Below are positions 1-37,622 of a DNA stretch of 64,000 nt, one piece after another. The stretch comes from Tribonema minus. Taxonomy: Eukaryota > Sar > Xanthophyceae > Tribonematales > Tribonemataceae. A program made the translations under genes and the position numbers. Below the pieces are notes generated by a model that was given only the letters and a program-made list of their open reading frames with translations, had not been told where the DNA came from and did no database searches. The DNA lies in the NCBI GenBank assembly GCA_017506865.1, contig JAFCMP010000533.1:558001-622000 (forward strand). The letters are read 5' to 3'. Position 1 is the stretch's first letter; each line of letters starts with the position of its first letter.

Positions 1-68
1 TGTGTAGTGTATAGGATATACATATATACTGGTGGTTTATGTGTAGTGTATTGCACTGCCCAGTGCGA

Positions 69-568
69 CGCGTACGCAGCAGGGCGTGGCCGCCGCATCG
101 CCGCATACCCTTCTCGTAGTTCTGCGCATGGGCATAGTGACGGTTAGGGTCAGGGTCAGGCTCCACACACGGCGAGAGCCCAAGCTTAATACTGGTTTCA
201 TGTAGTGTATAGCACTGCGAGCGCAATGTGTACGCAGCAGAGGGTGGCCGCAGCATCGCCGCACGCCCTTGTCAAAGCTCTGCGCGCGCGTGGAAAGTGG
301 TGAAGGGTGCGCAGCGGCGCAAGGACTGGTGCATGCGAAGTAAAGCACTGTGATGCGAGCGCGCGCAAGATGTGCGCGTAGCAGGGCGTGGCCACAGTAT
401 CGCCGCACACCCTTCTCGCAGTCCTCTGCGTGCGCGGAAAGTGGGGAAGGTTATGTATGCAGCAGCTCGCAAAGTCCTGTACTGCGCTGTACTGTCGTGT
501 ACTGCAGTGTCGATAGTGGCGCAAGGGCAACGTGGGAGCAGCGGTGCGTGCCCGCAGTATTGCCGCAT
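69..568 (-). repeat. Acceptor-side echo array of the next purC exon
   Basis: Four imperfect copies, at about 69-120, 230-290, 371-430 and 541-568, read on the minus strand as a 3' splice site followed by a peptide close to YEKGVRRYCGHALL. SAICAR synthases of plant type have exactly this kind of segment straight after the TGSTSTSIW motif, which ends the purC exon at 1214. The copies are therefore echoes of the start of the next purC exon, which should lie left of position 1. Spacing is about 140-170 bp. They agree with each other up to the ALL residues and then diverge, so none is the full exon. Confidence 0.7.
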
Positions 569-1015
569 ATAATCTTCATTGTACTTGTGCTCGCGCAGAA
601 CATGGCTGATTGATATACGAGGCGGTGAGAGTTGAAGTCTTCGCGCCCCTTGAAGTTGATGATTGTGTAACGCGCATATGAGGTCAATGAGAATGGCTTC
701 TTGGCCAGATTAAGTCATGACCATGTGTGCGTTTCACTGCTGAGTCACAGAGCAATTGTGCGCACAAATTTACTTGAAGTGCACTGATTCACTTGCAGCC
801 TACAGTGAGATGAGGATTCTGAGGATACTTCTGAGGGCTAACCGAGCAAAGCCACTGACAGCGATGAAACAAGCAGCTGTCTCACATTGAACATTGTTCA
901 CAAGCAACGACTCACTGCGCTGACAGAACTGCTGGTTGTGGCTACTATGTCGCTGAGAACAAATACGTGTGCTGCTGCGTCGTAAACGATGCACTACGAT
1001 TAGTACATTGCAGGC

Positions 1016-1213
1016 TTTGAACAAGAAAGCGTACGCACCTTCCATGCACTGTTCGAGCGTTGAAAGAACTGCTGAACCGACGCCCCCTACACTGATCAGG
1101 AAGTAGCACACGATACGCTTTCACATGTGGGTCGCAGGCTTTACCCTTTACAAAAGATAGCGTCGTTCACATGTGCATCGAAGGCTTTACAAAGGAAGAA
1201 AAAAAGTACGCAC
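1016..1213 (-). repeat. Donor-side echoes of purC exon 2
   Basis: The minus-strand block containing GGAAGGTGCGTAC at the true donor (1206-1218) recurs near 1028-1045. A related flank with AAAGCCT and CACATGTGAA recurs at about 1118-1165. The copies carry the last few exon bases plus the donor and early intron, with spacing of roughly 60-180 bp. They complement the acceptor-side copies nearer the left edge. Confidence 0.5.
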
Positions 1214-2011
1214 CTTCCAGATAGAGGTGCTGGTGCTGCCCGTCATGTACCCCCGCATCACAAACTCAATGGGGAACACCGCGCACTTCTTGCCGATCGT
1301 GACATTCGGGTCGGGAACCGCGAGAACGTGGTTGTCCGCTACGCCCTCCTTTTTACTGAGCTCAAACCACCACGCTGAGGTCTGGTTCAGGACTGCGCCT
1401 TTGAACGGAACCTGTGCCAGGGCCCTGTCGAATGCGCTCTGCCTGTCGGTGGAGACGAGGACTATGAAGTCGTCGCTGACGTATGTGTCGCGGACCTGCG
1501 GTGCAGGACGCAGCGCGAGGCTCAAGGTGAGGACTGCGGCTGTTGCAACTGTGCGTACTGCTGATGTGCTGGTTGGTTGGCAAGGGAAGGCGGTCTTAAC
1601 TCTCGAGAATTGCTAAGGGTGTGAAACACAAGGCAGACCGGGCTGCAACGACGAGTCCTGACAAGGCTGTATGGTCAGCAAAAGGAAGACGGCAGTACAG
1701 CACGAGTATCATGATCATTGTTGCAAAGCGTATTCTCAGAAGACCAGCGTCTGCCAACTGCCCAAAACTTCAACCTTCAGATTGCTGGGCCTTTCACTCA
1801 CGTGAGCAACACCTTCCAAGCTCAATGTTTGATCGCTTGCTCACTATTCACTCGCCTTGCCGACATAGCGTCCCTCGTGCGCCACAATCGAGGTGGGGAT
1901 GTTGGTCTCACCAACACACAAGCTGGCCCTTGCGGCATCGATGCGTGGAATATACTCCTGAGTGCGCGCCTGTGCCTCCGCCACCGCCGCGCTCACTGCT
2001 GCTTCGCCCAT
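1214..2011 (-). CDS. purC: SAICAR synthase (PurC), 5' part, two exons
   Basis: Phosphoribosylaminoimidazole-succinocarboxamide synthase ligates aspartate to CAIR in de novo purine synthesis. Exon 1 is 2011-1856 (52 codons, ATG at 2011) and exon 2 is 1495-1214 (94 codons). The junction joins GRYVGK to VRDTYVSDDF, the family's GKVRD signature. Visible family motifs follow: STDRQSAFDR, FKGAVLNQTS, NHVLAVPDPN, FPIEFVMRGYMTGSTSTSIW. The sequence resembles the plant/eukaryotic single-domain form. The intron 1855-1496 uses a GC donor (AAG|GCGAGT) and a CAG acceptor; the exon 2 donor is AAG|GTGCGT. The ATP-binding C-terminal two thirds is missing and should lie beyond the left edge, where the intron contains echoes of the next exon. 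The start is the first ATG in a plausible N-terminus; an upstream targeting exon cannot be excluded. The gene is divergent from the rraA-like gene, with 216 bp between the two ATGs. Confidence 0.88.
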
Positions 2012-2227
2012 TGCGCCCAGGTTTTGTAAGGTATCACTGTGCGTCTGGCTATGTAATCTGCAAACAGGATCTCACAGGCTTTTCAGCCCGAGATCATTTT
2101 GGCTTGTCACTTCAACTTGGACGTGAAGTACAGCGAGAGCAGACGCAGGCAGACAGACTTTGCGGTGTTTGGATCAATCCATCAGATCAGCGGTGCTGTG
2201 TACAGCACACCAGGCAGCGTCGGTGCC
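2012..2227. promoter_or_regulatory. Divergent promoter region, purC / rraA-like
   Basis: This is a 216-bp stretch between two head-to-head start codons and must hold 5' UTRs and promoters for both genes if the starts are right. I see no TATA box or obvious shared motif. The assignment rests on position only. Confidence 0.35.
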
Positions 2228-5200
2228 ATGTCATTTGTAGCTACCACCTGCAGACGTGTGCTGCCCCGACACTGCTGCACCAGTTTGGCAGCAGCGGCAC
2301 GGCGACATGCTTCGACAGCAGAAGCTTGGGGCGGGAGCTCAGATGTGCATCTGGACGTCAGGTGGCCCAGTCTGAGGGAGAAGCTGAGGAAATGTGACAC
2401 ACCCTCTCTGTGCGACGCGGATAAGTCTCTCACGCCGCTGACGGAATTGCGGCCGCGGTATCAGTTTGGCAGGGGCATCAAGCTGGTTGGCAGGGCAAGA
2501 ACAGTTCAGACGGTGAGTGATCATCCTTGACATGACTTGCATACGCCTGAGAGATGGCATAGTACTTTGCAGTGGTGCCAGACCGTACCAGCCATTGGCA
2601 ACCCGCGGCCGGCAACCTGCGGTGTTGCTTGCCACCGCAGTGCAGGGCTGCTTGCTCACCTGAGGCTGGCAAGTTCCTGTTGCTGCAAGGGGTAGGCACT
2701 ACCATAGTGCACTACCATAACATAAAGGCGGCCCTCACTCTGCCTGTCGTTAGTAAATTCTGCTGTTCAGGTTCAACAATCGCCGTTGTTGCAGTTGTGG
2801 AACGGGCGAGAGCAAGCCGTTCTGCTGGTGCCATCAATGGCCTCGCCAACCGTTGCACGCATACTTGGCTGTCAGCTTTGATGCTACCTTTCACATGTGC
2901 GCTATCATCACTGACATCCAGTTGGGTGTTTTTCATTGCGTTGTATACATGTATGAATCAGTTGCTGCATGCAACCCCATTTGACCCTGCGTCCTCAAGA
3001 TACCTCAAATTACAGCTCATAGCCGAGCCGCTGTTTAAAATAAACTGCTGACTGCATGTTTTGAGTCATTCGTTGCGACCCGCCGATGATGACGATCCAC
3101 ACACACCGAGACAGATCAAGTTGAAGTTCTAGCTGAAGGTGCGGCAGACATATTCAGTGCAAATGCCGCGCGCTCACAGCTAGCCCCCTGCTGATGCCCC
3201 ATCAGGCCATTGCGTGTCATAACCATCGCAGAACACGCCATACAGCGCTGACGTGCCGGCGACACAATTGCTGCTCACTGCCGCTGCTGTCACTGACGCT
3301 CCATAGCGGGTATGTATGTATGCACACGCGCATCTGGAAAAATATTGACGAATCGCCCTCGCCACGCGCTACGGCGCAGGCGCCAGCAGATGTCCGCAGC
3401 TGCTCTTGCGCCTTCAACACTTGGCTCGTACCACAAGCACACACGCCATGCACGCCATGCACATGTGCAGTTACACAAGTGTAACTGGCAAGCAGCTCTT
3501 GCGACCGAGCCGCGGCCGTCCCACATGGCCGCCTGCGCACCCTCTCACACACGCACACCACACAAACACACACACACACGGGTCACGTACACACACACAC
3601 ACACTCTATCTCTGTCTCTCCCTCACACGTACACTAACACGGGGGTACGCACGTATTTATGTGACGCGGTGCGCGCGCGCAGGTTGTCGGGCGCAACGGC
3701 CTGCCGGACTTCCGCAACGTCGTGGAGGCTCTCATGAGCAGCAGCCCGGGGGAGGTGCTGGTGATAGACGCGCGCGGAAGCCGCGTGGCAGTGGCGGGAG
3801 AGCTGTTTACAGCGGAGGCGCGGCGGCGGCAGCTGGCAGGCATCATCATAGACGGCGCGTGCAGAGACACGCCCACCGTGTGCAGGGTGAGTTTACAATT
3901 TGATACTGTTGCCGCACGCTGCGCCACGTGAACTCATGTTGGAGTAGCGCTAACATTAACGCACCCGCAACGATAGCAAGAAATTACTGCGGCGGCACCT
4001 GGCGGGCATCATCATAGACGGCGCGTGCAGAGACACGCCCACTGTCTGCAGGGTGACTTTTGCCTTTTGATACTGTTGCCGCGCGCTGCGCCACGTGAAC
4101 TCATGCTGGAGCAGCGTCGACTTCAACGTACAGAGGCAACTTCAGCATGCGCTTTACTGCGGCGGCAGCTCGCGGGGATCGTCATAGACGGCGCCTGCAG
4201 AGACATGACCACCTTGTGCAGGGTGAGTTTTCATGTCGCGCTGTTGCCACGCGCTGCGACGGTGGCGGCTGCCGCCGTGCATTGGCTGGGTGTACCCCGG
4301 CAGCAGCGGTAACTTCAATTACAGTCACCAGTGGAGCCAAAACTCCAATACTCCAAAAATTACTTCTACATCCGAATGGTGGGTAGTGGCAGCCGGCTGA
4401 CACGGTTGCCGGCGGCTCACGTGAAGGCGTGCAAGCCGGTGTACAGCGTGAGTTGCACGCCTATGGCGGCATTGGCACGGCGCGCGCTGCTGTCGACGAG
4501 CGCAGATAGAGGCGCGCATGAGCGCCTGACGGCGTGTGTACAGAGTTGCTCGCCAAATTGCAGGGCGACATGCCTGTGGTGACAAGCAGCACCTGCGTGT
4601 GTTGACAAGCGCGGTCGCCGGCAGAGACCCGCCCACCGCTGCGCAATGCGGGCTTCATATCGAGAGATGCGCTGCTGTGTTAGGGTAAGCTTGGTTACGG
4701 TCAGGGTTAGGGTTAGGGTTACCCCTAACCCTAACCTTAAGCAGGCGTGGAGAGGCGCGCATGAAGAAGACGCGCTGGCAGATATGGGCATGACATGCCT
4801 GCTGTGACAAGCGCCCGCGTGTGTCATCGGGCCGCGCTTCTGTGGCCCGCACCCCGCCCATAACCCTCCCTAAGCTCGCTACTCGCCACGAGCCGCACGG
4901 CGTGCAGGCCACACTGCCAGCGCGCAGCGCACTTCTCTGTTACTGTGCGCCGCGACGGCACGGCGGCAGTGGCTGCTGCGGACAGCACCAGACCGGCCGT
5001 GCAAAGACGCATGTCACTCGTACGCGTCGAAATCGCCTTTGCGAAAGGCAGCCAGCGTGTGGAGCGACGGCGGCGCTACCAGAGGCGCGCACACCGTATG
5101 CGGGGTGTGTCATGTAAGGCTTGAAGTACGTGAATGCGCTACTTGCGCAGCAGCGGACGGCAGGGCAGCGACGGGCGACAGCGGCTGACGGCGCGCGTTG

Positions 5201-5451: not shown

Positions 5452-7746
5452 GGAGCAGCCTGCTTGCCGCGCATGTGCCGCTCATCGGTTCTGCAGAAAG
5501 CGGGGGTTGTTGCTACTTCACATGGCAGCAGGGCGTCTCACCGCAGTGCTGATCGCCGCCGCCATCAGCCCACTACCGCCTGGTGCGCCTGCGCTCCACT
5601 CTACTCTTACTCTACTCGCAGTCAGCGAGTCCCTGTGACGGGGCGGCGCGCGCGCGGCGCAGGGTCCAAGTCCGAGCTCGGCCGATCAACTTGATATCGT
5701 GACAAGAGATGAAAACGAATCAAAAGATCGTAGAGCTCTAGGTGACAAGGGATGGTTAGCCGCAAGCGCCTTCCACCAATAACCGTGGTCGCCGCTGCTG
5801 CAGCAATTGGCCACAAGAGATGTTTGTTCAGGAAGCAACTGTCTTTGTTAGCAGCGGAGCGCTCTGCGGCTAGCCCTAATCCTAACCCTAACTAACGCTG
5901 CTGCACCTCGGAAGCGTGCATACCCTTTAGAAGTATACACAGAATCAATGAGCCTCGCGACCGCTGTGCGCATCACAGCAACGGTTGCAGTGCTCGCCGC
6001 GCCGCAGACCGTGGGCGGGGCTGCAATGGCGACTCAACCTGTAGAGCCAACCTCGACTCGGATTCGATTGCGACTTGCGATTACGGTAACAACATAGCCT
6101 TGGCCAAGTCTGGATGGCAAGATTCAGGTTGTTGAACTGGAAGCCCCTTAAAGTTGACGATTTGCACCTGACCCTAACCCTGTAATGGAAATGGGATACA
6201 TGCTCCGCTGCACTGCAATGCCGCACTTCAACACATGCTCCACCTCCTCTCTGCAGCCTCCCGCCACCAACCCTCCCTGCGCCCCTTCCCCATCTGTACA
6301 TACCCCATCCACAGTCTCTCTGCAGCTTCCAACCCCCCCCCCCCTCTCCCCCCCCCTGTTAACCCCTGCCCCCCCCACCCCCCCCTCCTCCTGCGCAGCT
6401 CGACTTCCCCTTCTACTCGCGCTCAGTGAGCCCCATGGCGGGGGTCTGCGTGACGCTCGACCAGAGCCTGCTGGGGGTGCCCGTAACTGTCAGCGGCGTG
6501 ACTGTCGCAAACGGCGACGTGCTGTTCGGCGACCAGGATGGCGTGGTCAATCTCGGCCAGGACATGGACAAGTGAGTCACTGAGCGAGTGAGTAAATAGT
6601 GAGTAAAAGGCCATGTGCTGTTCGGCGACCAAATGGCGGGGTCAACCTCGGCCAGGACACGGACAAGTGAGTCACTGAGTTAGTCCGCGATGAATGAGTA
6701 GTGAGTCAAAGGCGATGTGCTGTTCGGCGACCAATCAACCTCGGCCAGGACGTGGACAAGTGAGTCACTGAGCGAGTCCGCGAGTGAGTGAGTGAGTCAA
6801 GGGCGGCGTGTGGCGCGTGCCCGGCCGTGATTGGTGGCTGTCAATGAGTGAGTCAACGAGTAAGTGAGTGAGGCGAGGGTGCGTGACTGATTGGCTGTCA
6901 ACCGTACGCGCCCCCTCGGGCGTGCATTGCGTGCCACGTAGTGGCGTGCACACACAGGGGGGCATTCTGCAGCCACGCAGGCGTAAATGGCGCTCCGCGC
7001 ACGCGCTTTGTGTAGTGTCGGAGTGTATCTTGAAGTTCTTTGGAAGTATATACCTGCATACCCGCTTACCCTAACCCTAATCGCTTCAGGCAGCGTGGAG
7101 CGGCTGGCGCGGCACGCCGCAGAGATCCGGCAGCACACATACGTGCCCGTTTTCGTGCTACATACACCTTGCTTTTGTGCGACAGAATCTGGCCTGGCCG
7201 CTTTCTCACTCTCGCCTTGGCGATGCGATTGCGGCGGCGGCGGCGGCGCGCAGCGTGGAGCGGCTGGCGCTGCGCGCCGCGGAGATCCGGCAGCACAAAT
7301 GCGTGCCCGCTTGCGTGCTTTACACCCTCCACGCATGTGCTACACCAGCATACCCACCAGCATCTGCCTGCTTTCTCACTCTTGCCATTGGCGGCGGCGC
7401 GCAGCGTGGAGCGTGGAGCGGCTGGCGCGGCGCGCCACGGTGTTGAGGTATCTTGAAGTGCTTTGGAAGTACATGCCTGCTTACCTAATAACTTAGAGTT
7501 TCAACCTATAACCTTGTCCACACTGGTATATTTGTACCTGCATATATACCTGCATACCCACTTACCCTAACCCTACTCCCTTTGCGCAGCGTGGAGCTGC
7601 TGGCGCGGCGCGCCGCGGAGATCCGGCAGCACGAGCGCCTCGTTCTCAAGGAGGTGCTGGAGCACGACAGGTGCCTCGCAGAGTTCATGACGATACTCGA
7701 CAGCCACAATGCCGCCAAGAAGGGCGGCAAGGAGGGCGCAAAATAG
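2228..7746 (+). CDS. RraA / HMG aldolase-like protein, 4 exons
   Basis: Model: 2228-2512, 3683-3886, 6399-6571, 7590-7746 (TAG 7744-7746), giving 272 aa with all phases agreeing. The family covers 4-hydroxy-4-methyl-2-oxoglutarate aldolase/oxaloacetate decarboxylase and the RNase E regulator RraA. Residues 1-32 are Arg/Ala/Ser-rich, like an organelle targeting peptide. LREKLRKCDTPSLCDA and LVGRARTVQT match the family N-terminus. Exon 2 has GEVLVID, GELFTAEARR and GIIIDGACRD, with E135-X20-R156-D157 in place of the usual D or G-X20-R-D metal/substrate motif. Exon 3 has LDFPFYSRSVSPMAG and VTVANGDVLFGDQDGVV. Exon 4 is a charged helical tail. Donors are GTGAGT; exon 4's acceptor follows a CCCTAACCCTA tract. 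Every internal exon edge has partial duplicates in the neighbouring intron. Whether it is an aldolase or a regulator cannot be told from sequence. Confidence 0.9.
3981..5215 (+). repeat. Donor-side echo array of rraA exon 2
   Basis: The 3' end of exon 2, encoding LAGIIIDGACRDTPTVCR plus its GTGAGT donor, recurs at 3981-4052 and 4158-4219 with 166- and 170-bp spacing. It includes the following intron block around TGATACTGTTGCCGC and ACGTGAACTCATG. More decayed pieces are visible near 4615-4650, 4990-5015, 5081-5110 and 5187-5215. The first two copies keep the reading frame of the exon. This explains most of the otherwise odd short ORFs between 4.0 and 5.2 kb. Confidence 0.75.
4686..4738. repeat. 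Head-to-head telomere-like tract
   Basis: A TTAGGG run turns directly into a CCCTAA run (GGGTTAGGGTTA then CCCCTAACCCTAACC) inside rraA intron 2. The two orientations meet without a spacer, as in a fused-telomere junction, but each arm is only a few units long. Confidence 0.75.
5419..5449 (+). repeat. Long G homopolymer
   Basis: About 31 consecutive G residues, preceded by AGGGC, inside rraA intron 2. Length is likely polymorphic and also prone to sequencing error. Shorter C runs occur at about 13616, 18715, 20438, 26851 and 43109. Confidence 0.85.
5584..5645 (+). repeat. Acceptor-side echo of rraA exon 3
   Basis: This stretch aligns with the true exon 3 start at 6391-6445: CCTGCGC, then TTCTACTCGC against TACTCTACTCGC, then TCAGTGAGCCCCATGGCGGGG against TCAGCGAGTCCCTGTGACGGGG. 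It is a diverged copy of the acceptor plus about 45 bp of exon, roughly 800 bp upstream of the real one. Confidence 0.55.
5700..5817 (-). mobile_element. Helitron 3'-flank fragment in rraA intron
   Basis: The reverse complement of this stretch matches about 62155-62270, just downstream of the Helitron RING ORF. Shared blocks include GCAGCAGCGGCGACCACGG, TTATTGGTG, TTGCGGCTAACCATCCCTTG and TCACCTAGAGCTC. It is most likely the end of a related Helitron copy or a short non-autonomous derivative inserted in antisense orientation. Terminal boundaries were not resolved. Confidence 0.7.
5873..5897 (+). repeat. Telomere-like CCCTAA tract in rraA intron 2
   Basis: GCCCTAATCCTAACCCTAAC, a degenerate sense-strand CCCTAA run about 500 bp upstream of exon 3. 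Confidence 0.8.
6609..6763 (+). repeat. Donor-side echoes of rraA exon 3
   Basis: The exon 3 end (GTGCTGTTCGGCGACCA ... CTCGGCCAGGACATGGACAA, then GTGAGTCACTGAG) is repeated at 6609-6667 and 6712-6763. Both copies keep the GTGAGT donor but have lost bases inside the exon part, so they no longer keep the frame. Spacing is about 100 bp. Confidence 0.85.
7069..7440 (+). repeat. Acceptor-side echo array of rraA exon 4
   Basis: The start of exon 4 (CAG then CGTGGAGCTGCTGGCGCGG) recurs with echo starts at 7094, 7254 and 7405 before the real one at 7590, spacing 160, 151 and 185 bp. The first two encode VERLARHAAEIRQH-like and VERLALRAAEIRQH-like peptides against the true VELLARRAAEIRQH. The first copy also repeats the TACCCTAACCCTAA tract that precedes the true acceptor, so the telomere-like motif belongs to the duplicated unit. 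Confidence 0.85.
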
Positions 7747-26600: not shown

Positions 26601-29600
26601 AGGCAACGCTTACAGGCGAGCGCGCAACAGGGTCAATTTACGCCTTGCACTCTTCATTGATTTTCTAGCTTGGGGCGCGGAGACGCGAAGACAATTGACG
26701 GCAAAGCTCGCTTACCACTGCACCGTCAGTGCGAAGCGCGCGTTGTAGTTGGTACGCTGCGCATATATGCATACCTATTGCGCGTCGTTCTCGATGCATC
26801 ATGCGCACTGTCCTACGCGGCGACGGCTGGCAGGTGCTGAGCAACAAAGAACCCCCCCCCCCCCCCCCCCCCCCGTCCCCCTCCCCCACACACACACACA
26901 CACGGTGTGGATTCTGGTGTGCATACATACATACCTCCTGCGCGTCGTCCTCCGCGATGCTGTCCGGCAGGTGCTGAGCAATGATGCATGCATAAAAAAC
27001 ACGTACAGTATAGTGTATTGTGTGTATACATACATACCTCCTGCGCGCCGCCCTCCGCGACGCTGTCCGGCAGGTGCTGAGCCATGATGCATGCATAAAA
27101 AAACACGTACAGTATTGTGTATCGTGTGTATACATACATACCTCCTGCGCGTCGCCCTCCGCGACGCTGTCCGGCTGGTGCTGAGCAATGATGCATGCAT
27201 AAGAAACACACATACAGTATGGTGTCTCGTGTGTACAGGTACATACATACCTCCTGCACGTCGTCCTCCGCGACGCTGTCCGGCAGGATGAGCGAGTGCG
27301 TGCTGGCGCGGCTGTGCGAGCGCAGCCGCATGAAGGCCTGCACGGCGGCGGCGACAACGGCAGCGGCAGCAACAGCAGCAGCGGCAGCGCGCGTCAGCGG
27401 CCACAAGCGCCTTGTTCCTTCCTGTACATGGGGTAGTACAACATATAGGCTCTCTCTATCTCAAGGTTGCCGCATGAAGGCCTGCGCGGCGGCGGCAGCG
27501 ACAGCGGCAACGGCAGCGCCCATCAGATTTTCATACGATCATCACGCGCCTCGTCTTTTGTCTGTGGTGAGTCGCATCCAAATATGCTTTCTCTTTCTCT
27601 CTCAGGCTTTCTCTCTTGGTCAGAAGAAGGCAGGCTGGCGCAGCAGGTGAGAGTGGACCGCGCCTAATCTAACCCAACCCTAACCCTAACCCATCCTCTT
27701 CACAGGCTCATGTCGGTGCCGCCCTGTGTGCACGTGCACGAGGGTTAGGGTTAGGGTTAGGGTCAGGGTTCCAGTTCAGGGTCGGGGCGAGAGGGGCCCC
27801 GTGGCCACTTCTATGGCAGAGCATCGTGGCAGGCCTAGAAATCATACACAGTGGGGCCTCACGATGGTTAAACAGGAATAGAGCCACGACACAATGCACA
27901 GCAACGCGACTGGGGCTCGAGACTTGCCTCCGCGGATGGCGAGTCCCTGCGCTTCTGAATCAGGCTGGGCCGGTGCGGCTCCATGGCGGCAGCGCCACTC
28001 AGCGCGCTGTTACCCGTCGCGGCCGCGCTGCGCACAACGCATCGTGGAAGCGCGCAGCAGTGCTCAGGTCACGCGCTGTGTTCGCCAGAATGATATGTAG
28101 CAAGTACGCTGCCATTGACTGCTGTACCACTTTAGTTTCAAGCAGGGTCAGGGTCAGAATTATGGTTTTGCTGGCAGCGCCGCTCGGAGCGCTGCTGCCC
28201 GTTGCGACGGCCCTGCGCACAAAGCGTCGTGGAAGCGTGCAGCAGTGGTCAGTTCATACGCCACGTTTGCCAGAATGACAACGGAATGCTTCCCCTGCTG
28301 TACCACTTTGCCTTTGAGTAGGGTTAGGGTGAGGGTCAGGGTTAGGGTTATGATCTTGCTGGCAGCGCCGCTTGGCGCGCTGTTGCCCGTCGCGATCGCA
28401 CTGCGCAGCGCGCATCGCAGCAGTGCGCAGCGATGCGCGGGACGCGCGCTGCATGCGGTGGTGCAAATAGGAGTACGCTTCCCCTACTGCGCCACTCTAG
28501 ATCCAGAGCTAGGGTTAGCTTTAGGGTTGTGTCTTGGCAGCAGCGCTGCTCAGCCCGGTGCTGCCGCCCTGCGCAGCGCGCATCACGCAAGCGTGCAGCG
28601 ATGCCCAGAGCACGCACAGCGCCCGCCACAAGCGATTGAAGTGCGCCTTCTGCTCCAGCACATGCCTCAGCGTTGGGGCTGCGGTCATCGTTACGGTCAC
28701 GCGCAGCTTGTCTGCAAGCGACAGGAGCAGCGCCGCCACTAAACGCCAAATGCGCAGCTCCCGTGGCGCGCGGGTGCCGCGCATGCAATGATGCGCAGCG
28801 CTCAGCAAAGTACGCTGCGCAGCGTTCGCTGTCAGCCTTCTGCCAACGCAGGGTCTTCGCGTGCCTCCGCATGGCAAATACATGTGGTCTGAACGCCGCG
28901 GCGCGCGCGATGTGACAGCCTGAAACAGGCGGGTGTGGCAGCGGTCGGCGGCGCACTGCACTGGATGCAGCGGCGACGTCGTGGCCCCTTGTAGTACCTT
29001 GGTGTTATTTATCCTCCCTTCAGTTTTGTTTTTTAGAGCCACTGCCAGAAATACGCACTCGTGCCGAAATAGTGTGAAGATATATACAGCTACTAATTCA
29101 AATGCCGGTTGGCAGCAGTGCTCAGCCCCTACTCCCGCTTCTGGGGGGGGTGGCAATCGGCAAGAAGCCGACGCGGAGCGTGTGCAGGCCCCGAGCACTG
29201 CTCAAGTCTTTACTTCAACGTTGAGGTTGTGTGCGTCACTCACGTTTGCGCAGACACATTACGTAAGCCCGTCTGCAGCAAAGATACGCCGGGCCACGCA
29301 CATGCCCTCAGCGCTGCTGTCCATCTCATACTTCACTATTGAGGTTGCGTGTGTCCCTCACGTTCGTGCCGGCGCATTACGCGCGTCCTTCTGCCGGCAC
29401 CGCCGCCGCCAGGAGTTGCATATGCCCTTAGCGCTGCTGTCAATTCTATTTTCCGACATTGATGTTGCGTGCATCACCCACGTTCGCGCAGGCACGTTTC
29501 GTGCGCCCGTCTGAGCGACGACGAAGGCGCTGCCACACCCAGGACTCGCACATGCCCTGAGCGCTGCTGTCAAACTTCAATATCATACTTGAACATTGAG

Positions 29601-32600
29601 GTTGTGTGCGTCACTCACGTTCGCACAGGCGCATTACGCGCGCCCGTCTGCAGCGCTGTCGACGGCGCCGCACATGCTCGGAGCGCTGCTGTCATACTTC
29701 AAAAATAATACTTCAACATTGAGGTTGCGTGCGTCACTCACGTTCGCGCCGGCGCGCTGCGCGCGCCCGTTTGCAGCGAGGATGTAGGCGCCGCCACGCC
29801 GGGGGCGAGCCGTATCTGCAGCGACGGCGCGGCGGGGGGGTCTTGCAGGGGATCCAGCATGAGGCGCGCCTCCCCCTTGGCGAGCCGCTGGATTTGTTGC
29901 CGCAGCTGCTTGACCTGCAGAGGCAATGAGCGCAGTTGTTTGGACGGTGGTTTGGTGTGGAGGTGCCCCAACTGCCGCGTGCAGCAGCATTCTCACCGGC
30001 TACTGGCAACAACCCAACCCTGACCCGAACCCCAAGCAGCTGTAGCAACAAATACCCCGAGCGCTGTATTGGTTGCCGCAGCTGCTTGACCTGTAGGAGC
30101 AGCAAGCACAGCAAACGGTGAATTGGCGGCCTAAAGATGGCGTCGGCGTATGGCGTGTCGTGCCCTCACCCTAATCTTAGTCACTGTATTTGTTGCTGCA
30201 GCTGCTTTACCTGCAGGGGCAGCGAGCGCAGTTGTGCGGACGGTGAAAAGGTGGCGATTTGCAGCAGCAATGCACTGGCGGTAAAATTGACTGGAAGACT
30301 GTACAATTGCGCAACTGCCACAAGCAGCAGCGTCCTCATCAGCTGGTGGCAACAACCCGACCCTAACACTAACACTAACCCTAGGCGCTGTATTTTTTGA
30401 CGCACCTGCTTGACCTGCAGGGGCAACGAGCGCAGTTGTGCGGATGGTGGTTAGGTTGTTGCCAGAAGGGTTAGAGTTAGGGTTGTGATGCTTGCGGCCA
30501 GTTAGCTGGTCTGGAGGTCGCGCCGACACAGTGACGCGCTACGCGATGGCGGTTACAGGCAGCAATGTACTGGCAGCGACTGATGTGATATACCCCGAGT
30601 ACGTGATTGCGCGATCGCTACGTGGTTGGCGCCTGGGACAGCCGCGTGCAGTCGCGCGATTGGTCGGTTAATCTCATTTTGGAGGTGGCGTGGATGCGCC
30701 GTGGGTGGCGCTAACCCTAATCCTAACTCTTAACCTAACACTCACCGTAAGTGGGAGGGTTCAAGGCCGTGGTACATTGGCACTGCAAGAGATCTGACAG
30801 AACTCATCGCGCAGTTGCCGCATGGTTGACCTGTGGGACAGTCGGGTAGGTGATTGACGGAAACAGGTAGGTTCCTGACACCGCTGCAGGTGAAAGCCGA
30901 TACTTCAAACTACTTTAGTCTTGGCTTCTTTGTTGATACGGGCTGAGCGCTGCAACAACGGCGCATAGGTGGGTAGGTAGGTACCTGCAACAGCTGCAGG
31001 CAAGAGGTCCTTATCTGTGGTGACACGAGGTCAGCGCTGCAACAGCGGTGCCGCATTTCGTTTGGTGACAAAGGTTGAGCGCTGCGACAGCGCTGCCGTA
31101 CGTATGCAGGTATATACCTGAAACAGCTGCAGGCAGAGGTCCTGCTCTTGCTGACACGAGGTGATCGTTGCAACAGTGGTGTCACTTTCGTTTTGGCGGC
31201 GAAGGTTGAGCGCTGCAACGGCGCTGCCGTAGGTAGGTAGGTACTTCACTCACTGCTTGTAGGTATCATACCTGAAAGAGCTGCAGGCGGAAGTCCTTCT
31301 CCTTGGTGGCGAAGGACGTCTGCAGCACCGCGTTGGCCGCACGCAGGCTCTTCACCTCCGCTGCGTGCCGCTTGGTCTCAGCCTGCGCACGCCGCATAGA
31401 GTAGGAGTGCGGCATTGAGCAGGATTCACGGATTGCGCTGAGGCATGCGGCCGCTTGGACTTCTGCGCGCTCCGCACTGAGGAGGGTTGTGGGTTTGAGG
31501 TCCGCTAGTGTAGTGGGCAGTGCATACGTGGTTAATACGAGCACCTGTATAAAAAAAACTAATCAGAAGTTGTATATATAGGTAGGCTCTTCACCTCCGC
31601 CGCGTGTCGCTTGGTCTCTGCCTGCCGCATATAGTACGAGTGTTAGGGCAGGCTTGCTTCACTTCGAGCGCCCGCTGCAGTACCATTGCGAATACGCGTG
31701 TTACGAAACTGCAACTATTTCAGAAGTAGTTTATAAAGTACATGGGAGGCTCTTGACCTCCGCCGCGTGCCGCTTGGTCTCCGCCTGTGCACACCACATA
31801 GACAAGTGTTCAATTGAGTTGACCTCCGCCGCGTGCCGCTTGGTCTCCGCCTGTGCACACCACATAGACAAGTGTTCCATTGAGTTGGCTTCATTTTGAG
31901 CTGTGGTAGTGGGCGGTGCGTAGCATCCACCGCGTGTGCACTGCACGCGCTGTGGGTACAAGCTTCTGTGATGGTGCAAATCTAATTCTGAAGTAGTGTA
32001 CTATGGTAGGCTCTTCACCTCCGCTGCATGCCGCTTGGTCTCCGCCTGCCGCATATGTACGAGTGTTAGACCAGGCTTGCTTGACTTTGAGCAACCGCTG
32101 CAGTAGTGGGCGCTGCGTACGCTGCGGATACCACCACCTGTAATGGTATACTTCTAAACGCATGTGAAGTAGTCTAATCACATTATAGGTCTTCACCTCC
32201 ATCGTATGCCGCTTGGTCTCCGCCTGCGCACGCCGTATTGAGTCAAAGCATTCCATTGAGCAGACTTCACTTTGAGCGCCCGTTGCAGTAGTGGGCAGTG
32301 CATGCGCTGTGCATACAAGCACTTGTCATGGTATCAAACTAATTCTGGACAAGTATGTTTCATGATAGGTGTTTTCACCTGCGCCATGTGCTAATTGGTC
32401 TCAGCCTGCGTACACCGCATAGAGTAGGAGTGTAGTCGTGTTCCTGCATGCATATGCTGAGGTATGCACAAAGGTGGCCGCTTGGAGTCTGCCTGGGTTA
32501 GGGTTAGGGTTAGGGTTAGGGTTAGCGCCGCATCAGAGACAGGCGTGGCTTCAAGGACCAGGGTTGACATATACAGCCTACGCCGTATGACCGTATATAC

Positions 32601-34816
32601 CGTTTGACCGTACGTACGAGTCCCGCCAGAACGAATATACGGACCGGTGCAGGCAAGCAGCACCGCGCAAGGGGCAGCGCAGCTGGGATACTGAGCACAG
32701 ATGGTGGTACACTGCCTGCATTGAGCAATCATATACGACATGAAGCGCGCAGCTCGTGCTTGACAAACGAGACCATGCTCGGCAACCTTACACAGCCCTC
32801 TCGCACGGCGGCAAACTAAGGAGGAAGCTCATCATGAAGTCAAATGTGAAGTTAAAGTTAAAGTTAGCGGCGACCATATATTGCGAACGTATTGGCTGCT
32901 CAGGGCGGTATACGTATATAACAAATGTGTGACAAAGAACCGACCGTATATGTAAACCATGTCAAGGACCCGCTAGTGCAGTGACTAGTGCATACGCCAA
33001 GGGGTACAAGAACCTGTATAAGTATTGCACTAGCTCGACAGTTTATGGTAGGTCCTGCAGATCTGTGGCGAGCCTCCTTGGACTTAGGGTTAGAAATAGG
33101 GTCAGGGTTAGGGTTCGACCTAACCCTAATACCTGCGCGCGCCTCGTGGAGTAAGGCCGAGCAGCCGCAGGTGGGCAGTGCATACGCTTAGAGATACAAG
33201 CAGCCGTATAATATTATTGTGGTAGTACGGATTCAGAAGTATATAGCAGGTACTTAGGGTCAGGGGGTTTAGCGTGAGGGCTAGGGCTAGGTTTGCGGAT
33301 CCTAACCCTAACCCCCGTGGCGAGCCTCTTGTACTCCGCCTGCGCGCGCTGCGCGGACAATTCAGCAGGCTTTACAGAGTTGTGCATATGCCGATGCACC
33401 AGAGTATGTGCAGAATACACTTCATGTCATGTGCATGTCTGTGTGTGTTTGCGCATACTTCATGACACATGTCAAAGTAGCCATGTTCTGTGCAAACTGG
33501 AAGTGTTATTTGTAGTAGCATCATCAGTGCGTGATGCGAGTTCTAGGCTGCGGGAGGGGGGGCAGATCCACGGGCAGCGGTGATGCGCTTCAGCGTCAGC
33601 GTCAGCTGAGGGCAAAGTTGGAGTCGCATGCTCAAGTTGAAGTTGCGCATTCACTTCCGCACGCGCACGCGCCATTGGCGATCGCATCAGCAAGCGTGCG
33701 ATAGCGAGCATCTCTTGCAGCTTATGGTGAGGATGAGCATTACCTTAGAGAGCCAAGGTGCAGTCGCTTGCTCGCAGCATCGCTTGCAGGGTAGGGTCAG
33801 GATAAGGGTTAGGGTTAGTATTACAGACCCGAACCCTACCTTCAATCCTCATGTAACTTAGGTTTAGAGTTAGGGTTAGGGTTAGGGTTAGGGTTAGGGG
33901 TAGGTATGCTGATACCGCTTGCTCACCTCCGCGCGCGCGCGCGCCAAGGCCAGCATCGCCTGCAGCTGCCGTATCTGCGCGGGCGCCGTGCGCTCCTGCA
34001 CCGCGTCGCGCGCAGCGCCGCCGCCGCCTGCTGCTGCCGCTGCTGCTGTTCTAGGCGTCTGCCGCCCGCCGCCGCTGGTGGCGGGCCGCTTGGGCGTTGG
34101 ACTGCGCGTTGCGCCCGCCGCTGCGGGGTGTTTGTCCTGTGCGCGGCGGCGATAGACACCGTTGTGGTAGAGCGAGATGAACGGCGCTGACTGCTGCGCC
34201 ATCGCTGATTTGTGAGGTGTAGTTGTAGTTAGCTTGGGGCTTTTGTCAGTGACAGACAGCACTGCGATGAAGCAAGATCAAAGTTGCTTAGTGTCGCGCC
34301 ACTCATGTGTGAGGTGTGCTTTTGGGGCTTGTTCAGCCTGCTGCGGGGCGTTTGTCCTGCGCACGGCGAGGTTAGGGTTAGGGTTGGGATTGGGGTTAGC
34401 GTGGCGGTGGTGAACCAAACTGAACATGAATAGGAACATTCATGACTCAAGAGTTGGGGATTCACCAGCTGTCGTGATCCACCAGTGGACCACCACTGAT
34501 CTGAGACAAATTTAGACGCAAGCCCCGGGGTGTGTTTTGTGCTGTATGCGGCGAGGAGAGTTGCCTAACCCTAAACCCGACCCTGGGGGTGATGGACAGC
34601 GAGCACTCTCACCAGCAGATCAGGTCATGTCGCCCCTGGGCCGATGGCCATTGCCCCCCCCCCCCCTCCCCCCCCCTCCCCTCGAACGTGGCTTAAATAA
34701 TGTGGCTAAAACAGCGGTGCACCGCTCGGTTCGCGCCGCGACAGCGCGCGCGTGCAGGCAGTGTCTTCTTGGCTGCGCGCTGTGCGCTGTGCCTTTGCTG
34801 ATCGCTGCTCCCGCTG

Positions 34817-34850
<34 letters not shown>

Positions 34851-34926
34851 CACTGCTACTGGTGCCACTGCCACTGCCACTGCCGCTGCTGCTGCTGCTG
34901 CTGCTGCCGCCGCTGCTACTGGTGCC

Positions 34927-34960
<34 letters not shown>

Positions 34961-37152
34961 TTGCAGCTACTGCTGCTGCTGCTGCTGCTCCCGCAGCTGC
35001 TGCTGCCGCTGCTACTGCCGCCACCGCCACGCGCAGCGCTCACCTGCTCGCCGCGCCCCTCCGCCGAGCGCCGCTGCCGCTGCTCGTCCCCCTCAAACAT
35101 GTCCCCCTCCTCCTCCTCTTCATCCGCCTCCGACGGCGTCCCCACCGCCACCAGCTGCCCGCCGCCGCTGTCGCCGCTGCCGCCGCCGCCGCGCCGCCGC
35201 CGCGCGCTGCTGCGCTGGTGCCGCGCGAGGGTGCGCCGCAGCTGCGCCTCGCGCGCGGAGGCGTCGCGCAGCTGCTCTGCGGCGCGGCGCGCGAGCGCGC
35301 GCGCGACGCGCGCGTCCTCCAGTGCTGTCGCCAGGCGCTGCGGCGTGGGGGATATTGGGGGGGGTTAGGGTTTGAAGTTAGGGTGTCAAGTTAGGCCGAG
35401 GGGGTGAGATTAGGGTTAGGGTTGGGACTAGGGTAAGCGCCACGCGCGCGTCCTCCAGCGCCGTCGCCAGGCGCTGCACGAACGAAATGCGACGCAAGCA
35501 ACACATCTTCATCAACTTGGACTGTTTGCAGCATTGTGAATATTTTGTGGGTGGGGTTGGGGTGAGGGTCGGGATTAGGGGGTTGGCGCGACGCGAGCCC
35601 TCCAGCGCCGTCGCCAGGCGCTGCGGCGGGGGGTTATGGGGGCAGGGGGTTATGGGGGGTCAGGGTTTGAGATCAGGGCAAGGGGTGACCGTATTCACTC
35701 TGTACTCCTTTGTACCGCGTCTGCCAGCTACGCAATGCCCCCCGTACTTGCCTCGTACTCTACCGCATACCTTCATGCCTCTGCCACGGCGCTGCCTCCG
35801 CGTCCGTCAGCTACGCGCTCACTGTACTCACCCTGTACTCTCGCGTATCCTCGTGTACTCACTCTGTACCCTCCCTACCCCATACCTACGTACCTGTGCC
35901 ACGGCGCTGCCCTCCGCGTCCGCCAGCTGGGGCTCCTGCTCTGCACGCTTGTGTACTCACTCTGTACCCTACCGCATACCTACGTACCTGCGCCACAGCG
36001 CTGCCCTCCGCGCCCGCCAGCTGGCGCCCCTGCTCTGTACTCTTGTGTACTCACTCTATACCGTACCGCATACCTACGTACGGTGCTGCCCTCCGCGTCC
36101 GCCAGCTGGCGCTCCTGCTCACCCTGTACACTATTGCGTACCCATGTGTACTCACTCTGTACCCACGCGTACCTGTACCTGCGCTACGGCGCTGCCCTCT
36201 GCGTCCGCCAGCTGGCGCTCCTGCTCGCGCTGCGCGCGCCGCAGCGCGCGGTTGTCCTCCTGCAGCTCCGCCACGATTGCCTCTAGCGCGCACGCGCGTG
36301 ACTCCATGTCGTCCGCCCGCCCGCCGCACGTCGCCAGCTTGTCGAGCTGCGGAGACAGTCGTTACGCTTAGGGTTAGGGCTAGAGTTACCATTAGGGTCA
36401 GGGTTAGGGCTGGGGTTGGGGTTAGGGTTAGGTTAGGGTTAGGTTCACGCGCACGACTCTACGTCGTCTGCACGTACGCCGCACGTCGCCAGCTTGTCGA
36501 GTTTTGGAGACGGGCAGCCGTTGCGCTTAGGGTTAATTCAAAGTGAGGGTTGGGGTAAGGGTTCGGCCTTGTGAGAGTGGAGGGTGCGGTGCCGCTTGTT
36601 TGCTGTGACTGCAGAGGTGAGAGTGCAGTCGTTCGTGTCCTATGCACTATGCACTATGTACTCTCTCTATCGTACCTGCTGTCTACAGAAGCGTTGACGC
36701 ATGACATGCGGGCAACTGACGAGGGTCAGCGGCCTCCGGCGTTGCCCGCCATAGCGATGTGCGGTGCGTGCATCACTATCCTGCGTGCGGGGCAACGCCA
36801 TCACGCAACTCATCCGCTGCGTATGTGTCCTGTCTGCGTCGGATAATGACTGCGCTACAAGGCCGCTCACATCCACAAGCAAAGGTATCACTCTGCGCAT
36901 GACGCGCCTACGCGCTTCAGGCCGTGGTGCGCCGCCGCCGCCGCCGCCGCCACCGCAACGCTGCAGCCGGGCCGCTGCTGCACTACATTACAGAGCGTAC
37001 AGGCAGTACCGCGTGCACACAATACTGTCCATCATAGCCGTGCCCGTACCTGTAAGCACAGATTCGCGTTCGTCCGCGACAGGCTCGCCAGCTGCAGATT
37101 CGCCATCCTCAGCTTCTTGACCAGGATCGCGTGGTGCACCGGCGAGCTCGCT

Positions 37153-37192
<40 letters not shown>

Positions 37193-37622
37193 TGCCGCCG
37201 CGGCGCGGCGCGTATGCCTCCGACGCCTTTGCGTGCCGCCGCGACAGCGCCGGAGGCACCGGCACCGTCGTTATGCGGCGCAGGTTGCTGCTCTCCCAGC
37301 CATAGGAGAATGGATCCTCCTGCCGCTGCTGCTGCTGCTGCTGCTGCTGAGGCGACGGCGGCGGCTGCGGCCGCTGCGGGGGCGCGCTCATGCACTTGGC
37401 GCGCGGCGCCGCCGCCGCCGCGCGGCTGTTCGCGTGCGCGCGCCGCTGCTGCAGCACCGCGTCGTAGCGCAGGAAGTCCCGCATTTCCTCGGCGGGGGTG
37501 GCGCGGTGCCACATGTCGCTGTCTTCGCCTGCGTCCGTGTAGTCGTCGCAGGTGCTGTCACACTCCGGCAGCCTGGAAATGGCCAGGTTGTCGCAGAGCG
37601 TGTCTGAGATGTCCGCTGTCAT
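23684..37622 (-). CDS. Long coiled-coil protein, about 10 exons
   Basis: Model on the minus strand: 37622-37050, 36346-36179, 35337-35044, 34190-33927, 31382-31272, 29914-29742, 28888-28618, 27337-27251, 25657-25564, 23883-23684 (TAG). Phases agree throughout, giving about 744 aa. Residues 1-165 are disordered with poly-Gln and poly-Gly. A coiled coil follows (VKKLRMANLQLASLSRTNAN, LEAIVAELQEDNRALRRAQR, ARRAAEQLRDASAREAQLRR), then an acidic segment (EADEEEEEGDMFEGDEQ), further helices (RQLQAMLALARARAE, KSLRAANAVLQTSFATKEKD, VKQLRQQIQRLAKGEARLML) and a C-terminus with TGAMLYAQNQQAFATAMARL. No family recognised; a cytoskeletal, centrosomal or trafficking scaffold is possible but unproven. Exon 1-6 edges are firm. 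The 28.6 and 25.6 kb exon edges are less certain, and exons may be missing. Nearly every exon edge is echoed in the adjacent introns. Confidence 0.65.
23985..24560 (-). repeat. Acceptor-side echo array of terminal exon
   Basis: Four copies, at about 23985-24090, 24110-24210, 24238-24410 and 24420-24560, of the block upstream of and into the last exon. Each has GTTCGTGCAATGAAACTGTCAT or its CAATGCAAGTGTCAT variant and a GCG-rich tract; two include GGTGACCAGCGGCGCAATGG or GGTCACCAGCAGCGC, echoing the LVTGAM codons. Spacing is 110-180 bp. Confidence 0.75.
24599..24631 (+). repeat. Telomere-like CCCTAA array
   Basis: Five to six near-perfect CCTAAC-type units. Here CCCTAA is on the plus strand, antisense to the coiled-coil gene, unlike most tracts in this gene. 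Confidence 0.9.
24640..25360. other. Intron stretch, one doubtful exon candidate
   Basis: On the minus strand 24992-24931 lies between a CAG acceptor and a GTGACA donor and encodes EFMVDKLQRNCCETCC-like residues. Including its 62 nt would break the phase between the exons at 25.6 kb and 23.9 kb, so I left it out. The rest shows no coding signal. Confidence 0.3.
25365..25460 (-). mobile_element. Diverged LINE 3' tail
   Basis: This shows the same order of blocks as the LINE tail at 8327-8435: CTCAAGGGCATGAAGCAGCCCGGATGAT, then GAATCTACA, then GTCGCA. It is substantially diverged. Confidence 0.45.
25460..26135 (-). repeat. Echo arrays around the 25.6-kb exon
   Basis: A downstream (donor-side) copy at about 25480-25535 repeats GCGGCCCTGCCGT..ACGGCCGT.GAGCGCTGCTGCCAC. 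Upstream (acceptor-side) copies of the block GCTGAAAG.G.GGGCGCGCGGACGCAA with GTTGTT.GGCGG.CCCGTCTGC lie at 25655, 25972 and 26098, with partial copies at 25755 and 26280. TTGTCAATGCGCATTGA is shared by several units. Confidence 0.7.
26440..26525 (+). mobile_element. LINE 3' tail fragment in intron
   Basis: CATGTAGATGCTGGTAGCAT followed by CATCTGGGCTTTCTCGCGCC and AAGAATTAACGAAGAAGTAC matches the LINE tail at 63575-63650. It is a short, 5'-truncated copy in plus orientation. Confidence 0.75.
26835..27180 (-). repeat. Tandem 39-nt echo micro-exons
   Basis: Downstream of the exon ending at 27251, three copies lie at 27180-27142, 27076-27038 and 26973-26935 on the minus strand. Each starts after GCTCAG, runs 39 nt in phase, and ends at GAG|GTATGTATG. 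They encode HQPDSVAEGDAQE, HLPDSVAEGGAQE and HLPDSIAEDDAQE against the true exon end LPDSVAEDDVQE. A fourth, decayed copy near 26840 has a stop. Units repeat every 103-109 bp and share an ATGCATGCAT-containing intron block. Confidence 0.85.
26851..26905 (+). repeat. C homopolymer and CA microsatellite
   Basis: A run of about 24 C residues, then CCCTCCCCC and a CACACA run, inside the echo-array intron. Confidence 0.85.
27467..27530 (-). repeat. Acceptor-side echo of the 27.3-kb exon
   Basis: GCCGCATGAAGGCCTGCGCGG followed by a GGCAGCGACAGCGGCAACGG tract copies the acceptor region at 27326-27390: the AFMRLR codons plus the pyrimidine-rich tract on the minus strand. Spacing is about 140 bp. Confidence 0.75.
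27660..27775. repeat. Unique segment between inverted telomere-like tracts
   Basis: A CCCTAA tract (about 27668-27692) and a TTAGGG tract (about 27744-27770) face each other across about 50 bp. On the minus strand a 20-nt block, 27723-27704, is framed by CACACAG and GTGAAG. On the plus strand the CCCTAACCC tract leads into CTCTTCACAG, an excellent 3' splice site at 27705. I cannot tell which strand, if either, uses it. Confidence 0.5.
27985..28540 (-). repeat. Echo array of the 28.6-kb exon end
   Basis: Copies begin at about 27989, 28170 and 28363, with the source-like unit at 28537 (spacing 181, 193, 174 bp). Shared blocks include GGCAGCGCCGCT, GCGCGCTGTTGCCCGTCGCG and GTGGAAGCGTGCAGCAGTG, followed by GTACCACTTT and an AGGGTTAGGG-type tract. 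The telomere-like tract is part of each unit. Confidence 0.75.
29230..29665 (-). repeat. Donor-side echo array of the 29.9-kb exon
   Basis: The exon end encoding TGARSAPAR plus GTGAGTGACGC recurs four times. Minus-strand donors are at 29618, 29481, 29361 and 29243; the true one is at 29741 (spacing 123, 137, 120, 118 bp). Each copy keeps a GTGAG/GTGGG donor, and most also have an AG right before ACGGGC, making 29-nt pseudo-exons. The intron side shares CAACCTCAATGTT with TGAAGTA. Confidence 0.88.
30055..30460 (-). repeat. Acceptor-side echo array of the 29.9-kb exon
   Basis: Copies at about 30060-30125, 30187-30250 and 30389-30450 repeat the acceptor and first codons, VKQLRQQIQ: GCCGCAGCTGCTTGACCTGC with AGGGGCAACGAGCGCAGTTG and CGGATGGTGG. 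Telomere-like tracts at 30010, 30365 and 30465 sit between copies. Confidence 0.82.
30540..30860. other. Intron sequence with a degenerate telomere-like tract
   Basis: CTAACCCTAATCCTAACTC at about 30711, plus one weak acceptor-echo piece near 30810 (GCGCAGTTGCCGCATGGTTG). Otherwise nothing recognisable. Confidence 0.4.
30865..31260 (-). repeat. Donor-side echo array of the 31.3-kb exon
   Basis: The exon end encoding LQLFQ plus its GTA donor (plus strand: ACCTGAAAGAGCTGCAGGCGG) recurs at 31108, 30985 and, more decayed, 30869. Each is followed by AGAGGTCCT..TTG.TGACACGAGGT and a GAGCGCTGCAACAGCG block. Spacing is about 120-160 bp. Confidence 0.82.
32490..32525 (+). repeat. Telomere-like TTAGGG array
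   Basis: GGGTTAGGGTTAGGGTTAGG, about five units; CCCTAA on the sense strand of the coiled-coil gene. Confidence 0.9.
33085..33125. repeat. Telomere-like tract with orientation switch
   Basis: TTAGGGTTAGAAATAGGG then GGGTTAGGGTTCGACCTAACCC: a second place where TTAGGG meets CCCTAA. A similar switch occurs at 33255-33317. Confidence 0.7.
33640..33790 (-). repeat. Donor-side echoes of the 34-kb exon
   Basis: Three decayed copies of the exon end encoding MLALARARAE plus its donor, at about 33645-33690, 33692-33723 and 33745-33785. Examples are CACTTCCGCACGCGCACGCG and GCGATAGCGAGCATCTCTTG against CACCTCCGCGCGCGCGCGCG and GCCAGCATCGCCTGCAGCTG. Confidence 0.6.
33861..33903 (+). repeat. Telomere-like TTAGGG array beside a donor
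   Basis: Six TTAGGG units end about 25 bp downstream (minus strand) of the donor at 33926. On the sense strand this is CCCTAA. Another short tract lies at 33790-33820. Confidence 0.9.
34310..34560 (-). repeat. Acceptor-side echoes of the 34-kb exon
   Basis: CTGCTGCGGGGCGTTTGTCC with TGCGCACGGCG (34343-34371) copies the RRRAQDKHPAAAG codons at 34117-34150. A weaker copy lies at about 34525-34555. The upstream flank TGTGAGGTGT..CTTTTGGGGCTTGT is also copied. Confidence 0.65.
34800..35030 (-). repeat. GCT/CTG trinucleotide tract
   Basis: A long imperfect GCTGCTGCT/CACTGCCACTGC tract directly downstream of the exon ending at 35044. It is open in several frames (poly-Ser, poly-Ala). I treat it as intronic because a GTGAGC donor follows GGCGAGCAG, but read-through into it cannot be excluded. 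Confidence 0.6.
35440..35630 (-). repeat. Acceptor-side echoes of the 35.3-kb exon
   Basis: The exon start encoding RLATALEDARVA (plus strand: GCGCGTCCTCCAGCGCCGTC then GCCAGGCGCTG) recurs at 35445-35478 and 35588-35627, spacing about 135-150 bp. TTAGGG-type tracts lie at 35365, 35411 and 35565. Confidence 0.85.
35780..36130 (-). repeat. In-phase echo micro-exons of the 36.2-kb exon end
   Basis: Minus-strand copies at 36114-36082 (33 nt, ERQLADAEGST), 36029-35988 (42 nt, GRQLAGAEGSAVAQ) and 35935-35894 (42 nt, EPQLADAEGSAVAQ) follow the true end ERQLADAEGSAVAQ. Each lies between an AGCAG acceptor and a GTACGTAGG donor, in phase and stop-free. A decayed fourth copy lies near 35780-35830. Spacing is 94-97 bp for the first pairs. 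The introns share a TACTCACTCTGTACCCTACC block. Confidence 0.87.
36360..36565 (-). repeat. Acceptor-side echo plus telomere-like tracts
   Basis: A copy of the exon-2 start (CACGTCGCCAGCTTGTCGAG with a GGAGAC flank) lies at 36447-36530, about 155 bp upstream of the true one in transcription. TTAGGG tracts at 36368-36450 and 36529-36562 flank it, and each unit carries GTTGCGCTTAGGGTTA or GTTACGCTTAGGGTTAG. Confidence 0.82.

Follow-up and report, generated by a model that had tools for sequence, protein, structure and literature searches.

How introns grow is an open question, for which the usual answer is transposons. The closest described system is found on the dot chromosomes of the chicken, where Hron et al. 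(2026; PMC12954441) report what they call "exon stuttering" or "sequence stuttering". In that system, imperfect tandem copies of the lateral part of an exon together with its splice site, tens to hundreds of base pairs (bp) long, lie in the adjoining intron. The copies occur in proximal and not in distal exon-intron pairs, more than 90% of the sources lie at the exon border, the exons stay intact, and extensive within-species variation in intron length is one of three main features; its authors propose replication stress, repair or meiotic exchange. Here we describe the same architecture in the xanthophyte alga Tribonema minus. The work began with a stretch of 64,000 nucleotides (nt), called the window below (C530:558001-622000 of a 158-megabase (Mb), 554-contig assembly), in which a purC gene, an rraA-like gene and a coiled-coil gene have introns that contain imperfect copies, or echoes, of their neighbouring exon edges. 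A preliminary description of the window knew of no named mechanism that matches this pattern, a view that the chicken study does not support. In our search of the open-access literature, the stuttering name appeared only in Hron et al. and no report came from outside the vertebrates.

The principal evidence comes from a genome sample chosen without regard to echoes, consisting of the chaperonin family PF00118, which was the first Pfam family searched and whose introns were then unseen, and one HSP70 gene (BiP) from a match table. A purpose-written spliced aligner predicted 58 introns in 11 gene models from these two protein families. Six were dropped as doubtful: five of the 50 chaperonin introns (two low-complexity gaps of 57-66 nt, two in which one side had weak support, and one whose first exon would be five residues long) and one of the 8 in BiP, where the donor is poor. 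The other 52 were kept. As in chicken, lateral exon copies with their splice site lie in the adjoining intron: echoes were present in 24 of the 52 introns, on the donor side in 16 and on the acceptor side in 14 (30/104 junctions), with up to seven echoes at a junction and none at most junctions. Repeating the screen of Hron et al. at its published threshold of 42.1 bits returned 20/52 introns. The local origin reported for chicken is evident here as well, since 24 of 104 proximal exon-intron pairs matched against 1 of 3588 distal pairs, and the best score on shuffled introns was 29.2 bits. The source likewise lies at the border, starting no more than 1 nt from it in 44 of 47 matches and no more than 10 nt in 46. 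Imperfect tandem blocks are also common to both systems, the smallest period being 85-204 bp in 22 of the 24 echo introns. Exon-edge echoes are real and extend beyond the window, and in the features that can be compared from one assembly the T. minus arrays match exon stuttering. The statement that "almost every intron" contains them describes the three window genes well and is too strong for the genome sample.

The T. minus case also differs from chicken. The host is a stramenopile alga rather than a bird, and at the same bit score the 20/52 sampled introns compare with 190 of 5,572 dot-chromosome introns in a chicken study that used annotation and hand review. The median exon part is 58 nt in T. 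minus and 36 in chicken. Stuttering in chicken goes with GC-rich genes and dot chromosomes, whereas no link with GC was detected in our sample.

In the window itself, 16 exon edges were placed by sequence in the three genes (by eye and without homology in the coiled-coil gene), and the last or first 45 nt of each exon was compared with the adjoining intron and with 60 shuffles of that intron. Eleven of the 16 edges had at least one copy that beat all 60 shuffles, for 34 copies in total, some of them weak; the five without an echo over shuffles were the purC donor and, in the coiled-coil gene, the E1 donor, the E3 donor, the E4 acceptor and the E4 donor. A 17th edge, located via its echoes and not chosen in advance, brings the count to 12 of 17 junctions. 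The array at 42-567 was traced back to the following purC exon, whose 5' edge lies outside the window at C530:557789 (window -211); this exon, 211 bases before the window, reads NYEKGVRQYCGHALPEGLRKN in frame. Its edge has five acceptor echoes, four inside the window and a fifth outside, and an acceptor CAG precedes the first three of the four in-window echoes and the outside one. Copies of exon 3' ends past the donor and of 5' ends before the acceptor were recovered as first reported, and the reported spacing and copy number were about right (mostly 66-240 bp; 1-6 copies per edge). A Pfam search of the genome with a relaxed cut-off found the rraA exon (profile positions 42-109) followed by two weak partial repeats of positions 80-110/111 (E 0.46 and 0.046). 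Local repeat clusters from a self-BLAST numbered 26 at 1-38000, some of them codon-repeat open reading frames (ORFs), against 3 at 38001-64000.

These arrays account for much intron length. The median intron was 798 nt with echoes and 417.5 nt without (p=1.5e-6; 52 introns), and after subtraction of repeats the medians were 386 and 413 nt (p=0.93), so the repeats account for the extra length of echo introns. Across the sample, 31% of the intron sequence lies in local repeats. The suggestion that introns had expanded through repeated duplication of their borders is borne out by these figures.

We consider it likely that introns in T. minus are lengthened by exon stuttering, meaning recurrent local tandem duplication at exon-intron borders. 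According to this model, segments of about 85-200 bp that straddle a border would be duplicated in tandem, on the spot and repeatedly, so that duplication across a donor would yield exon-donor-(exon end-donor)n and duplication across an acceptor would yield (acceptor-exon start)n-acceptor-exon. The outermost donor and acceptor, beside the full exon, would still be used, and the protein would survive; each added copy would therefore turn into intron. The copies would then decay more or less neutrally while selection holds the exon copy, and the intron would grow. What the sample shows is that the arrays exist, that they are tied to borders, are local and make up a share of intron length, and that the copies decay in a near-neutral way. 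The event itself is probably a DNA-level tandem duplication, through replication slippage, microhomology-mediated repair or unequal exchange, the borders would act as hot spots of mutation and not as sites where duplications survive better, and splicing by exon definition presumably tolerates the decoys. Microhomology at unit ends was viewed in nine arrays, of which two had no usable run; only the two-copy array at 31753-31887 (3 nt) reads cleanly, and we therefore make no claim for microhomology.

That the outermost sites are used is suggested by the proteins. Continuity across these sites matches orthologues in the Protein Data Bank (PDB). A protein put together from exons of the CCT-eta gene (contig C235) is 99% identical to an annotated T. 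minus chaperonin, and the spliced translation of the gene equals the annotated T. minus protein (P0004) over all 580 residues after the first methionine. Because conserved proteins run across the outermost sites, the site beside the full exon is probably the one that the spliceosome uses, which is also the choice that exon definition would make.

Whether the borders are special bears on the most substantial rival, in which tandem duplication is generic and happens everywhere in introns, and the tie to junctions follows from geometry plus selection on exons. The tests of this point (junction-window nulls, interior-array classes and simulation comparisons) used 45 introns, before BiP was added. 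Echoes were found for 0.47 of 50-nt windows centred on a junction. The share was 0.38 immediately inside the intron, 0.29 in the last 75 nt of the exon and on average 0.18 at a depth of 150-400 nt in the intron, against a null of 0.008. The junction mean (centred and just inside) of 0.42 exceeds the mid-intron value by a ratio of 2.3 (bootstrap 95% 1.6-3.6). Uniform tandem duplication was simulated from introns of a set initial length (60-250 nt) or from introns drawn from the repeat-free set (median 413), with exon rates of 0-0.3 of neutral and ages of up to 2 substitutions per site. Whether starting introns were short or long and exons frozen or slow, the ratios were about 0.6-1.0 (mean ratios 0.69-0.86, maximum 1.38 over 168 runs of 45 introns). 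As these fall below the observed 2.3, neither the freezing of the exon nor a short ancestral intron accounts for the junction peak under these models. Generic duplication does draw support from the repeats seen in mid-intron windows, from the 17 of 44 arrays assigned to the interior class (some seven of these reach a junction) and from the wide spread of the exon part as a share of the period (0.14-0.97), but given the simulations we regard it as rather unlikely. The same analysis divides the initial claim that the pattern is directional and junction-tied: the tie exceeds that of simulated uniform duplication, whereas directionality alone is no evidence, because any junction-crossing duplication that spares the protein must leave the extra copy in the intron. 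One tentative extension, which we put forward as a possibility that we would not yet favour, is that borders are tandem-duplication hot spots in some eukaryotes, owing to a process linked to transcription, splicing or chromatin that arose or operates separately in birds and in this xanthophyte. If this were true, border stuttering would be a general route of intron lengthening.

The copies also carry a record of their fate. Compared with the real edge, echoes are 0.89 identical in their exon part and 0.76 in their intron part, as expected if only the exon copy is constrained and the other side is free. Among echoes found by their exon part alone, GT is kept at 25/32 donors and AG at 21/23 acceptors, near the neutral expectation for dinucleotide retention of about 0.79 (0.89 squared). 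Most of the evidence fits neutral decay of the copies.

Several observations, set out in this and the following paragraph, weigh against stuttering as we have framed it. Where a BLAST alignment spans the site, GT is kept in 28/30 and AG in 24/25 cases (6 more alignments end before the site), and 39/57 echo-echo pairs agree better in their exon part than in their intron part; both results lean away from pure neutrality. Both sets were found by exon-edge similarity, so the way they were selected itself favours a non-neutral look. Ascertainment by exon part may lie behind the 39/57 excess, as may weak selection or an exchange between echo and exon. Together with the overall retention of GT and AG, these figures speak for a reading in which selection keeps the echoes as alternative exons with a function or as regulatory decoys for splicing. 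An exon extended to the echo site is open and in frame, however, at just 2/32 donors and 3/23 acceptors (5/55), and the exon-part-only set stays near neutral expectation. The sites look intact and the frame is rarely open, so the echoes could rarely yield a working protein; with echo number varying as widely as it does from junction to junction, we think such a function very improbable. Tandem alternative exons were rejected on the same count of 5/55. Overlapping Pfam matches (proteasome, HSP70, kinesin) were read by eye, an approach of low power from which no count was drawn. The tandem structure is also imperfect. In the full set of 61 edge-echo pairs, adjacent or otherwise, alignments cover a median of 0.35 of the distance between copies; many arrays are therefore not clean head-to-tail tandems today, and unlike filler now parts many of their copies. 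The preference for junctions, which is based on 45 introns and simple simulations, is itself incompletely modelled: simulated preferences of 3-, 5- and 10-fold gave ratios of 1.15, 1.12 and 1.51, and because these stay under 2.3 the models do not fit fully. The true junction preference may be larger, or the models may be incomplete.

Genes also differ strongly from one another. The share of echo introns per gene ranges from 0/8 to 6/6, the extremes being CCT-alpha and CCT-theta, and 0 of 5000 permutations were as uneven. At the level of introns, these differences are explained neither by GC (0.540 with echoes and 0.529 without; p=0.18, not significant in 52 introns) nor by runs of C ahead of the acceptor (p=0.74 with acceptor echoes and 0.058 with donor echoes). 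The eight genes with echoes sit on eight contigs. The gene contrast is present even on a single contig, C279, where L037 has 0/8 and L040 3/5, and CCT-alpha (L037) and CCT-beta (L041) contrast with CCT-theta (L038) in a way for which intron GC gives no explanation. Poly-C runs of at least 10 C occur just before the acceptor AG in several introns of L032, L033, L034 and L038. Telomere-like repeats were considered as a cause and set aside: 6/52 introns carry them, with no link to echoes (p=0.40). Interstitial CCCTAA/TTAGGG islands are common, with 43 in 154 kilobases (kb) of sequence surrounding the window, where a single shuffle had 1; those in the window include 4683-4737, 7069-7080, 24598-24633, 32495-32525, 33858-33904 and 36368-36443, with others elsewhere. 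For G-quadruplex motifs we have counts only, 17 in 21.9 kb of echo introns and 6 in 12.6 kb of the others.

Other origins fare worse. Local repeats are common in the region, occupying 0-54% of 8-10-kb stretches, and one might suppose that introners, other mobile elements, satellite DNA or an assembly artefact had produced the arrays. Four arrays were searched against the 158-Mb genome, in a search that scores best candidates only and skips common words, and each matched its own locus only, save one with two small matches on another contig; the rraA intron part was among those with a single locus. The exception is the CCT-epsilon donor array on C51, which two stretches of 62-63 bp at C74:212464-212585 resemble at 82-86%; these are perhaps a paralogue or pseudogene. 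Introners and transposons were rejected, as the arrays searched are local rather than the same element in many unrelated genes, and, in line with the preliminary description, they do not look like introners or dispersed satellite DNA. With most copies 65-97% alike, a duplication made by the assembly is unlikely, and we give this whole group of explanations very little credence. Introners (PMC9860276) do resemble the arrays in altering intron content on a genomic scale, but they insert copies in many genes, whereas the T. minus arrays come from the local exon. New introns have been documented to arise when exon sequence is duplicated in tandem (PMC4974935, PMC2891723), and this intron gain (the AGGT model) shares with our arrays a duplication across or near exon-intron borders. 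The copy geometry here is the opposite, with the end of exon N before the acceptor in 0/32 cases and the start of exon N+1 after the donor in 0/23; the two exon edges of one intron were alike in 0/45 introns. Existing introns grow, with no sign of a new one, and the AGGT model, contradicted in this sample, is extremely improbable as the source of the arrays. Tandem-repeat-filled introns are also known from GC-rich avian genes (PMC6792250), where the accessible text does not name exon edges as their origin. Short direct repeats at intron borders (PMC11782384) are similar in lying near splice sites; they are 4-30 bp long, compared between both borders and read as insertion marks, whereas the T. 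minus arrays are long copies of one border.

Beyond the three genes of Table 1, the window holds other features. A 595-residue open frame at 16482-18269 has bZIP and PAS matches, and its best match is a T. minus protein that is 48% identical over 56% of it. The domain order may resemble that of aureochromes. The regions 47883-49610 and 54325-62000 hold an integrase ORF (H2C2 and rve matches) and, at 59844-62000, an ORF with a RING finger; near 57 kb a helicase-like stretch was noticed by eye alone. Local repeats are few in 40001-56000 and none were found in 56001-64000. Two arrays outside the studied genes, at 44017-44608 and 52210-52805, have similar spacing (175-183 bp) and are perhaps copies of one element.

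Table 1. Exons and exon-edge echoes in the window (window positions)
Feature	Position	Strand	Basis or remark
purC (SAICAR synthetase) exon, donor at 1213	1214..1612	-	Pfam PF01259; 0 donor echoes; 5' limit is the open frame limit
Acceptor-side echoes of next purC exon	65-127, 221-296, 363-440, 527-567 (65..567)	-	echo search
rraA-like exon, donor GTGAGT at 3887	3707..3886	+	PF03737 match 42-109; start from Pfam match
Donor-side echoes of 3707..3886 exon, ~170-bp unit	4008-4052 (41 of 45), 4178-4222 (35 of 45)	+	echo search
Weak donor-side copies of 3707..3886 exon end (18 of 45)	4616-4645, 5071-5104	+	echo search
rraA-like exon, donor GTGAGT at 6572	6396..6571	+	PF03737 match 103-151; start from Pfam match
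Donor-side echoes of 6396..6571 exon, ~96-bp unit	6623-6666, 6735-6759 (6623..6759)	+	echo search
Acceptor-side echoes of last rraA-like exon	7094-7136, 7254-7296, 7412-7440 (7094..7440)	+	echo search
Last rraA-like exon, source of 7094-7440 echoes	7590..7746	+	sequence, model by eye
Coiled-coil exon E1, no donor echo	37050..37622	-	model by eye
Acceptor-side echo of E2	36457..36501	-	echo search
Coiled-coil exon E2	36179..36346	-	sequence and echo search
Four donor-side echoes of E2	36079-36117, 35988-36032, 35894-35938, 35783-35820 (35783..36117)	-	array matched own locus only, among best candidates in genome
Two acceptor-side echoes of E3	35437..35620	-	echo search
Coiled-coil exon E3, no donor echo	35044..35337	-	sequence and echo search
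Coiled-coil exon E4, no significant echo either side	33927..34136	-	model by eye
Six acceptor-side echoes of E5, including 66-bp pair 98% alike at 31753-31887	31584..32405	-	echo search
Coiled-coil exon E5	31272..31382	-	sequence and echo search
Two donor-side echoes of E5	30985..31153	-	echo search
Three acceptor-side echoes of E6	30058..30414	-	echo search
Coiled-coil exon E6	29742..29914	-	sequence and echo search
Four donor-side echoes of E6, ~118-137-bp spacing	29244..29655	-	echo search
Three donor-side echoes of exon ending at 27251, ~104-bp units	26935..27178	-	echo search

A pattern named in 2026 from bird microchromosomes is therefore also found in a distant alga whose genome is small (158 Mb). 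In its ordinary housekeeping genes, repeated duplication of exon borders lies behind much of the added intron length. The arrays are a trap for homology-based gene prediction. They are also a natural test of how the spliceosome chooses the outermost among near-identical splice sites, and T. minus is an organism in which one could measure how fast stuttering proceeds, what triggers it and how it affects splicing.

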